Part shown: in pieces, positions 8,055 to 9,874 of the stretch
Position numbering within the stretch: the first letter of the stretch is position 1
Layout: every line of letters begins with the position of its first letter
Assembly: GCF_017873415.1 (NCBI RefSeq)
Contig: NZ_JAGGKD010000001.1
Location: 186,001 to 250,000, forward strand
Length of the DNA stretch: 64,000 nt
Source of the DNA: Methanolobus bombayensis
GTDB lineage: Archaea > Halobacteriota > Methanosarcinia > Methanosarcinales > Methanosarcinaceae
Direction of reading: 5' to 3'
Notes under the pieces: model-generated
What the model saw: only the letters and a program-made list of their open reading frames with translations
Told to the model about the DNA's origin: nothing
Database searches by the model: none
Position numbers and translations under genes: made by a program

Positions 8055-8642
8055 TTGAAACAGCGCAAGCTTGAGATTTTGTTGGAACAGGTGGAAAGCT
8101 TTGATTCACCTAATGTGAACCTGGAGCAATATTCCACTCCTGCATTGCTTGCTGCTGAGATGCTACATTTTGCATATATGCAGGGTGACCTTGAAGGAAC
8201 TGTCTTTGACTTGGGATGCGGAACTGGTATGCTTGCCATTGGTGCAAAGCTTCTTGGAGCAGAGGATGTTGTAGGTTTTGACATCGATAACAAAGCTCTG
8301 GAAGTTGCCCGCAGGAACGCTGAAAAACTTGGTGTGGATGTTGAGTTTATCCATGCCGATATTTTCGAGGTAGAAGGGCATGCTGATACCGTTGTCATGA
8401 ACCCTCCTTTTGGTGCTCAGTTCAAGGGCAATGACCGACCGTTTCTTTTAAGTGCGTTGAAAACCAGTGATGTTATATATTCCATTCATAATTGCGGGAG
8501 CCATGATTTTATTAGTAAGTTCATAGGTGATGCCAGGATAACAGAATGGTACTCAACGGCATTTCCAATGAAACGAACATTTAAATTTCATAAAAAAGAA
8601 GTAGAAATGGTAAAGGTAGAGATCTATCGGATATTACGATAA
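8055..8642 (+). CDS. METTL5-like RNA N6-adenine methyltransferase (COG2263)
   Basis: This class I SAM-dependent methyltransferase has 195 residues. Motif I is [13 protein letters not shown], the acidic end of strand 2 is FDIDNKA, and the catalytic NPPF tetrad occurs in [13 protein letters not shown]. That tetrad is characteristic of N6-adenine methylation, and COG2263 is the archaeal relative of METTL5, which methylates small-subunit rRNA; the actual target here is inferred. The start is a TTG two bases after the dph2 stop, immediately giving [11 protein letters not shown], the usual family beginning. It continues the hpt-dph2 operon and precedes the Csl4/RpoL pair, an arrangement typical of translation and RNA-processing genes in archaea. 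Confidence 0.85.
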
Positions 8643-8692: not shown

Positions 8693-8700
8693 TTTATATA
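8693..8700 (+). promoter_or_regulatory. TATA box ahead of csl4
   Basis: TTTATATA predicts transcription start near 8722-8725. That lies inside the upstream open frame discussed for csl4, about 235 bases before its first ATG. Confidence 0.5.
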
Positions 8701-8720
8701 ATTTCGGATTATAAGAAGGG

Positions 8721-8957
8721 ATTTTTATTAGGATAAGAAATAGACGTAAGACTTCACGCAGAAAGATCAAATCATCTGATTCTGAAGACCAGCAGGGAAG
8801 TGAAGAAGAGGTTCTTTCTTCAAAACAGGAAGTAGACGAGAAAACTGCAGAGGCTGCAGAAAAATCTGTTAACAACAAAAAAGAACAGGGCCGTAAGAAA
8901 AAGTCAGTAAAGAATAATAAGTCCAAACCCGCTGACGGGTCCACAGAAGATGATGAA
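8721..8957 (+). other. Open, lysine/glutamate-rich upstream extension in frame with csl4
   Basis: From the stop at 8712-8714 to the csl4 ATG at 8958 the csl4 frame stays open and reads as a highly charged, disordered tail. It begins RNRRKTSRRKIKSSDSEDQQ and later runs KKEQGRKKKSVKNNKSK. No ATG, GTG or TTG occurs in frame. The only near-cognate starts are ATT at 8721 and 8727 and ATA at 8733; GAAGGG at 8715-8720 would be a ribosome binding site for the ATT at 8727. The TATA box at 8693-8700 predicts an mRNA beginning almost exactly here. Either csl4 starts at a non-canonical AUU codon, or a small upstream frameshift hides the true start, or this is a long leader that happens to be open. Confidence 0.45.
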
Positions 8958-9542
8958 ATGGATGATAAAGATGAAAGTACAGAGGAATCTGTTTTTGTAA
9001 TGCCTGGTGATTTTGTAGGAACCACTGAAGAGTTCAAAGCAGGCGAAGGGACATATGTCAATGTTGCAGATATCCATTCACTTAACACCGGATATGTGAA
9101 AGTTAACAGAAAAGCAAGGACAATTTCTGTTGTACCCAGAACCGCCACACCACCTGAGATCAAGGAGGGTGATATTATTATTGGAAACGTAGTCAACATG
9201 CGTGATTCAGTTGCTCTTGTTGAGATCGGTGCTATTAAGGGTAAAGGGGAGCGCGAGTTCCAGACAAATGGTGCTGCAGCAATTCATGTTTCCAATGTGA
9301 AGGATTCCTATGTCAAGAATCTTGGATATGAGTTCTCTCTTTCTGATGTGGTAAAGGCGAAGGTGATCAACACTCAGAATATGCGTCTGAGTACCGATGA
9401 AAAGTCCCTTGGTGTCATGAAAGCTTATTGTTCCAAATGTCACTCCCCTATGGTAAAGGATAGTAAGAAACTGAAATGTCCTGAATGTGGCCGTACTGAG
9501 ACAAGAAAGCTCTCTGCAGACTATGGAACCGGAGTAGTTTAA
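8958..9542 (+). CDS. csl4: Exosome RNA-binding subunit Csl4
   Basis: Csl4 caps the archaeal exosome and helps recruit RNA and DnaG to the 3'-5' exonuclease ring. The conserved N-terminal domain begins with VMPGDFVGTTEEFKAGEGTY. An S1 fold follows (GDIIIGNVVNMRDSVALVEI) and a C-terminal zinc ribbon with CSKC and CPEC pairs (YCSKCHSPMV, LKCPECGRT). The 194 residues from this ATG already contain all family domains. However, the first residues are acidic low-complexity sequence, there is no ribosome binding site at this ATG, and the frame is open upstream to 8715, so the true protein may be about 77 residues longer. It is followed after 53 bases by rpoL. Confidence 0.9.
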   Translation: MDDKDESTEESVFVMPGDFVGTTEEFKAGEGTYVNVADIHSLNTGYVKVNRKARTISVVPRTATPPEIKEGDIIIGNVVNMRDSVALVEIGAIKGKGEREFQTNGAAAIHVSNVKDSYVKNLGYEFSLSDVVKAKVINTQNMRLSTDEKSLGVMKAYCSKCHSPMVKDSKKLKCPECGRTETRKLSADYGTGVV

Positions 9543-9595: not shown

Positions 9596-9874
9596 ATGGA
9601 ATTGAAGATCATTGACAAAACAGAAGACGAAATGCACCTTGAGATCATTGGTGAGAACCACACTCTTCTCAATATGCTCAAGTCCGCTCTACTCGATGAC
9701 AACAGAGTTCAGATTGCAACATACGATATGAAGCACGTATCGATCAGCGATCCTATCCTTTTTGTAAAAACAGATGGTGCAGATCCTATCGAGGTTGTAA
9801 AGGATGCTTCTAACAATATCGTAAATGATTGTGACGAGTTCCTTGGTGTTTTTAAAACAGCTATTGATATTTAA
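9596..9874 (+). CDS. rpoL: DNA-directed RNA polymerase subunit L (Rpo11)
   Basis: The 92-residue Rpo11/RpoL pairs with Rpo3 (RpoD) to form the platform on which archaeal RNA polymerase assembles, equivalent to one half of the bacterial alpha dimer. The family signature is HTLLNMLKSALLDDNRVQIATYDMKH, with the long C-terminal helix IEVVKDASNNIVNDCDEF. The start is an ATG preceded by GGTGAG, an excellent archaeal ribosome binding site. It is the last gene of the csl4-rpoL unit, and a UUCG-loop hairpin followed by a U-rich tract begins 12 bases after its stop. Confidence 0.96.
   Translation: MELKIIDKTEDEMHLEIIGENHTLLNMLKSALLDDNRVQIATYDMKHVSISDPILFVKTDGADPIEVVKDASNNIVNDCDEFLGVFKTAIDI

Follow-up and report, generated by a model that had tools for sequence, protein, structure and literature searches.

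An AUU codon as the probable start of csl4 across Methanosarcinales

In a window of Methanolobus bombayensis DNA (the whole stretch of 64,000 nucleotides that was analysed), csl4 very probably starts at an AUU codon (8727..8729, + strand). This assignment follows from the open reading frame, from the conservation of the codon and from its distance to a Shine-Dalgarno (SD) sequence, which is the modal one. Sequence comparisons indicate with considerable confidence that csl4 would be translated from this codon through the SD, yielding a Csl4 protein of 271 residues with an N-terminal tail of 77 residues.

Reading frame and Shine-Dalgarno sequence of csl4

The csl4 frame is bounded upstream by an in-frame TAA (8712..8714, + strand) and is open from 8715 to 9539, with its stop codon at 9540..9542. 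No ATG, GTG or TTG was found in this frame between 8715 and 8958. The first in-frame ATG (8958..8960), judged from the ORF scan and its SD count, is likely an internal methionine. The original prediction had put the open stretch before this ATG at about 80 codons, and our count is 81. This value ranks first among 421 ORFs examined over 450 kb of this genome, for which the 99th percentile of open codons before the first canonical start is 52.4. The ATT at 8727 lies six bases 3' of GAAGGG (8715-8720), exactly as predicted, and the segment from 8727 to 8957 comprises 77 codons. The equivalog model NF034126 for the archaeal exosome subunit Csl4 matches residues 90-267 of 271 (8994..9527, + strand) with 216.2 bits against a cut-off of 90 and covers profile positions 2-179 of 180, indicating a complete core. 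The gene is preceded by a small methyltransferase gene with an MTS domain (8055..8642, + strand; Pfam PF05175, E = 2.6e-16) and followed by an ORF (9596..9874, + strand) that we take, by eye, to encode RNA polymerase subunit L.

The SD-like sequence GAAGGGAT (8715..8722, + strand; GAGGGAT in most relatives) was defined from the loci of the order and from the 16S 3' end of relatives, GGATCACCTCCTAA; the 16S rRNA of the genome itself was searched for and not found, and the tails of relatives were taken instead. The GAAGGG of the window is weaker than the GAGGG present in 151 of 157 loci. Counted from the 3'-terminal G of the SD core, the codon at 8727 is 7 nt away, the codon at 8724 is 4 nt away and the codon at 8721 is 1 nt away. 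In a scan of 450 kb, an SD of at least 5 nt preceded just 64 of 235 genes taken from their first ATG, and 7 nt was the modal spacing (23 of these 64 genes). At the ATG 8958 the SD match is just 4 nt, the lowest counted, and the claim that this codon has no ribosome-binding site stands in the sense that nothing beyond this match was found.

Conservation of the start across Methanosarcinales

Across the order, csl4 was present in 178 of 185 genomes, and its 5' region was read in 160 of these (161 loci, one genome being represented twice). We searched for an in-frame GGGAT-NNNN-ATT/ATC followed by a frame open to the csl4 core, a criterion that presets the GGGAT itself. This arrangement was recovered in 157 of the 161 loci (156 genomes, representing five families and 24 genera). 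The criterion leaves open the two bases preceding GGG; these are GA in 151 of the 157 loci and AA in six, including this genome, and conservation fades upstream of the SD. The codon aligned with 8727 is ATT in 151 loci and ATC in six. By comparison, the commonest codon accounts for 39-44% in five other isoleucine-rich columns of the same csl4 genes; in this control alignment the 8727 codon of 130 rows falls in one column, all ATT, and that of the other 27 rows falls elsewhere. ATT is the majority codon in 21 of 24 genera (binomial probability 3.4e-6 at p = 0.41, with genera treated as independent, although related genomes are not independent samples). The codon at 8721 is ATT in 112 loci, ATC in 26, ATA in 17 and ATG in two, with a majority of ATT in 20 of 24 genera, and the codon at 8724 varies freely (TTT, CTA, CCT, CAT, AAG and others).

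Four loci lacked the full arrangement. Near the place aligned with 8727, TTG is found in G039 and ATG in G035; a third locus (G027) begins within the tail, and the fourth (G151) has the motif followed by a stop in the tail. In this last genome, a member of genus g7, the combination of start motif and stop may reflect a frameshift, an assembly error or decay.

No in-frame canonical start lies upstream of the codon aligned with 8727 in 100 of the 157 loci. The other 57 comprise 28 with ATG at the 8724 codon, two with ATG at the 8721 codon and 27 with other codons at varying distances. The 28 loci whose ATG directly precedes the ATT belong to genera g7, g11 and g2, apparently Methanosarcina-like, and in these loci ATT may be the second codon. 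Judging from g7, csl4 of M. mazei probably also has ATG immediately ahead of ATT, but G171, a g7 genome, has AAG instead of ATG at this place. In G054, no canonical start precedes the csl4 core and the first one occurs 18 codons inside it. A different layout was found in family f6, which belongs to another order of the same class (33 genomes searched): all 18 loci read have an ATG at the core, at most about ten codons ahead of the PGD motif, and lack a comparable tail. Taken as sequence evidence, codon, modal SD spacing and a frame kept across the order agree with the proposed initiation at AUU 8727 and point to a start that is fixed across the order and is not the oddity of a single genome.

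The N-terminal tail

The tail encoded by 8727..8957 (+ strand) is basic and then acidic, and opens with a conserved basic block, (M)RIRNRRKTSRRKIKSS (8727..8777, + strand), defined from the consensus of relatives. Its length varies widely: the distance from the start to the PGD motif takes 70 different values between 33 and 181 codons in the 156 loci measured. The csl4 frame is open in 157 of the 161 loci, which is part of the search criterion, and each of the other two frames is interrupted by at least one stop in all of them. A stop-free frame kept despite varying length, with the other frames closed, looks like the signature of a coding sequence. The first 25 residues contain on average 9.2 Lys/Arg and 2.9 Asp/Glu, and the remainder is net acidic (11.2 Lys/Arg to 16.3 Asp/Glu). 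An AlphaFold2 model built with 40 aligned sequences has pLDDT below 50 at residues 10-66 and 69-85 and no secondary structure before residue 90, and the 77-residue tail is thus predicted to be disordered. The original view of a genuine, disordered basic/acidic tail finds support in a codon, an SD at modal spacing and a reading frame that are kept across the order. Between two Methanolobus genomes, changes in the tail at codon positions 1, 2 and 3 number 20, 20 and 30, with 11 silent against 32 replacement codons; the tail evolves fast, and this pair alone does not prove coding. From its charge, our guess would be that the tail helps to hold RNA or a partner.

Transcription context

A TATA box had been proposed to place the mRNA start in this region. 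The TATA-like sequence TTTATATAA is present (8693..8701, + strand), and a TATA-like hexamer occurs in the region 5' of csl4 in 17 of 27 Methanolobus loci. The mRNA start is expected 24-27 nt past a TATA box. Such a start would fall after the SD, and the argument from the TATA box is therefore weak. The small methyltransferase gene precedes csl4 in the retrieved DNA of 126 of the 157 loci, at distances that differ between groups. In 27 loci of family f5 its stop lies 2 or 10 nt before the AUU (23 loci), 15 nt before it (one) or overlaps it (three); in six of the eight g8 loci the distance is 17 nt; and in the 27 Methanolobus loci the two genes are separated by 80-115 nt. Since the f5 methyltransferase ends near or within the SD, an operon mRNA carrying the SD would be the simpler general picture. 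A leaderless mRNA set by the TATA box was rejected as a general explanation, given that the hexamer is limited to 17 of 27 Methanolobus loci and that the upstream gene of f5 ends in the SD or close to it.

Alternative starts of csl4

Several other readings of this region were weighed against initiation at 8727. The most probable of them is that csl4 yields two products, a long form from the AUU and a short form from the ATG 8958. We consider it unlikely: a methionine near 8958 is found in many Methanolobus sequences and, if AUU initiates poorly, a second site could become important, but the SD at 8958 is no longer than the 4-nt match and the first canonical start occurs at widely differing places within the order.

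It is improbable that the start is instead the other AUU, at 8721. This codon is ATT in 112 of 157 loci, including all six loci with ATC at 8727, and ATG in two Methanolobus genomes. However, just 1 nt separates it from the SD core, where the modal spacing is 7 nt, and its third base varies (ATC in 26 loci, ATA in 17). On this spacing and third-base variation it was rejected.

There is a similarly small chance that csl4 is reached by termination-reinitiation or frameshifting, either from the short upstream frame AUGAGGGAUUNNNAUUAG (AUG...UAG overlapping the AUU) or from the methyltransferase gene. Sequences compatible with such coupling do occur, namely an ATGA before GGG in 53 of 157 loci and the close methyltransferase stops of the f5 loci (2-15 nt before the AUU in 24, overlapping it in three) and of the six g8 loci. 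Nevertheless, the upstream ATG is absent from 104 of the 157 loci, the intergenic gap in Methanolobus is 80-115 nt, and the overlapping stop is no longer present in g25 (which has ATTCGG and similar sequences) or in the ATC-bearing f3 loci. The mini-frame at the csl4 start, ATGAGGGAT..., is seen in 53 of 157 loci, the window not being among them, and many of its copies end in TAG over the AUU. As a coupling device, the mini-frame AUG AGG GAU NNN NAU UAG was rejected, as it would serve 53 of 157 loci at most.

Initiation solely at the ATG 8958, the first standard start in the csl4 frame, would make the conserved stretch before it an untranslated leader. This is very doubtful in view of the amino-acid conservation, the in-frame length variation and the closure of the other frames across the order, as well as the 4-nt SD match at 8958. 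The first canonical start is also not fixed in place and lies inside the core in G054. Finally, a sequencing or assembly error masking a normal upstream start can be dismissed almost entirely: we found no support for one at the csl4 start, the same layout recurs in many other genomes, several in one contig, and, since the relatives read the same way, the missed indel once considered for this genome is excluded as an explanation of the missing start.

Other genes with near-cognate starts

The csl4 gene does not seem to be a single-gene curiosity. The same 450 kb contain further ORFs without a canonical start but with an SD and a near-cognate codon, and their sequences point to additional genes with AUA, AUU and CUG starts. 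One of them is radB (C1:263321-263980, - strand; TIGR02237 match), which would start as GAGGTGTAAAG-AUA-ACU. The aligned start codon is ATA in 43 of the 45 family loci. These include all 22 Methanolobus loci, 12 of which have an in-frame stop two codons before, and 21 of 23 loci in the other genera of the family, the exceptions being G035 with ATC and G141, which aligns with an offset. Of those 21 loci, nine have no in-frame canonical codon upstream and 12 have one, which in six cases is a GTG three codons before, inside the SD. ATA was absent at the start in eight loci of other families. Position 3 of the RadB profile NF006861 meets residue 3 of the protein, which indicates that the AUA is where the RadB family begins. 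In this genome the first standard start of radB is 44 codons downstream of the AUA, presumably beyond the GEAGSGKT nucleotide-binding motif.

An ABC ATPase gene (C1:39769-40674, + strand) has its putative AUA start directly after an in-frame stop. The codon is ATA in all 17 Methanolobus loci and ATC in three loci of other families (20 in total), and in two of the 17 Methanolobus loci the next codon is a GTG that could serve. Three cases are weaker. A CbiG N-domain-like protein (C1:151643-152185, + strand) has GGGAGGTCTTACTT-ATA, with ATA in 23 of 23 Methanolobus loci and absent in seven others. In these 23 loci the DNA just 3' of the ATA is nearly invariant, silent sites included. An FAD-dependent protein (C1:10804-12198, + strand) seems to begin at ATT in 10 of the 19 Methanolobus loci; in the others the N-terminus is different, and five of these have TTG. 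For crcB, a fluoride channel gene (C1:181587-181937, - strand), the start would be CUG, replaced by GTG, ATG or TTG in other species (six CTG, six GTG, four ATG, one TTG and three other codons in 20 Methanolobus loci).

We also compared 351 ortholog pairs between two genomes (G000 and G004), counting changes at codon positions 1/2/3 between the near-cognate and the first canonical start. In 56 of the 351 pairs the sequence ahead of the first canonical start is conserved; among the matches listed, most are, by eye, short leaders before ATG. Ordinary coding sequence of this pair has 1122/743/3523 changes, and the segments in question have 3/1/16 in radB, 8/6/23 in crcB, 7/5/21 in the FAD-dependent protein, 4/4/14 in the ABC ATPase, an uninformative 3/1/2 in the CbiG-like protein, and 20/20/30 in csl4. 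The near-cognate share is then 6 of 351 pairs (1.7%), a rough figure for one Methanolobus stretch only. Further long upstream open frames (C1 98752, 330507, 222333, 320718, 138407 and 231599) were rejected and taken to be leaders or non-coding sequence, their changes not being enriched at position 3.

Discussion

In the mechanism that we propose for initiation at 8727, the 30S subunit would be placed by GAAGGGAU (GAGGGAU in most relatives), the (G)AGG pairing with CCUCC of the 16S tail. The initiator Met-tRNA would read AUU with a third-base mismatch, and methionine would presumably be the first residue. The product would carry a basic block and then an acidic linker, predicted to be disordered, before the exosome-binding core. 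A weak AUU could hold Csl4 at a low level compared with Rrp4, or make it respond to aIF1. Both proteins belong to the trimeric exosome cap according to a passage of PMC4227792, so dosage could matter. We infer that csl4 expression is low or regulated.

Considered together, our results make it somewhat more plausible than its converse that the order uses AUU, AUA, AUC and CUG as regular, long-conserved starts for a class of genes that includes csl4 and radB (roughly 1-2% in the Methanolobus stretch studied), either through a relaxed choice of start codons or as a fixed expression brake on proteins of RNA decay and recombination. The rules for start codons in these archaea may be less strict than gene-finding programs presume. 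If AUU and AUA starts are conserved throughout an order or a family, they would offer a natural system for testing how aIF1 and the archaeal 30S subunit judge the start, and the N-termini of Csl4 and RadB would need correction.

We found no archaeal AUU or AUA start in the open-access literature, as represented mostly by titles and the beginnings of abstracts, nor in passages of PMC8211752, PMC6237735, PMC11456600, PMC5397173, PMC1976387, PMC5622118 and PMC2943090. The gene set described in a passage of PMC5397173 took in annotated genes starting at AUA, AUU or AUC, which implies that some such starts are annotated. By the marks of an AUU start, csl4 has no usable in-frame ATG, GTG or TTG, except in the 28 loci that have ATG at the preceding codon; its codon is conserved beyond amino-acid need; and its SD is at the usual distance, with the 16S tail taken from relatives. 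Compared with the archaeal family model NF034126, the core is the same and complete, whereas the N-terminal tail is outside the model and absent from the 18 f6 loci read.

Two bacterial genes invite comparison. The AUU start of infC, which encodes IF3, is named in the titles of Butler 1987 and Brombach 1987 (references of PMC9845219). Both infC and csl4 would be genes of the RNA or translation machinery with an AUU start; however, csl4 is archaeal and Csl4 is no initiation factor, so an autocontrol like that of IF3 is not expected. In Escherichia coli, the AUU start of pcnB (poly(A) polymerase I) keeps its level low according to a passage of PMC9764084, and AUU limiting pcnB expression is also the subject of the title of Binns and Masters 2002. 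Both pcnB and csl4 are genes of RNA tailing or decay with AUU starts, and the archaeal exosome itself makes A-rich tails, as stated in part of PMC4227792. The two genes share no homology, however, and the ribosome-binding site of pcnB is described as poor, in contrast to the conserved, modally spaced SD of csl4. The parallel between csl4 and pcnB is purely functional and at most a case of convergence.
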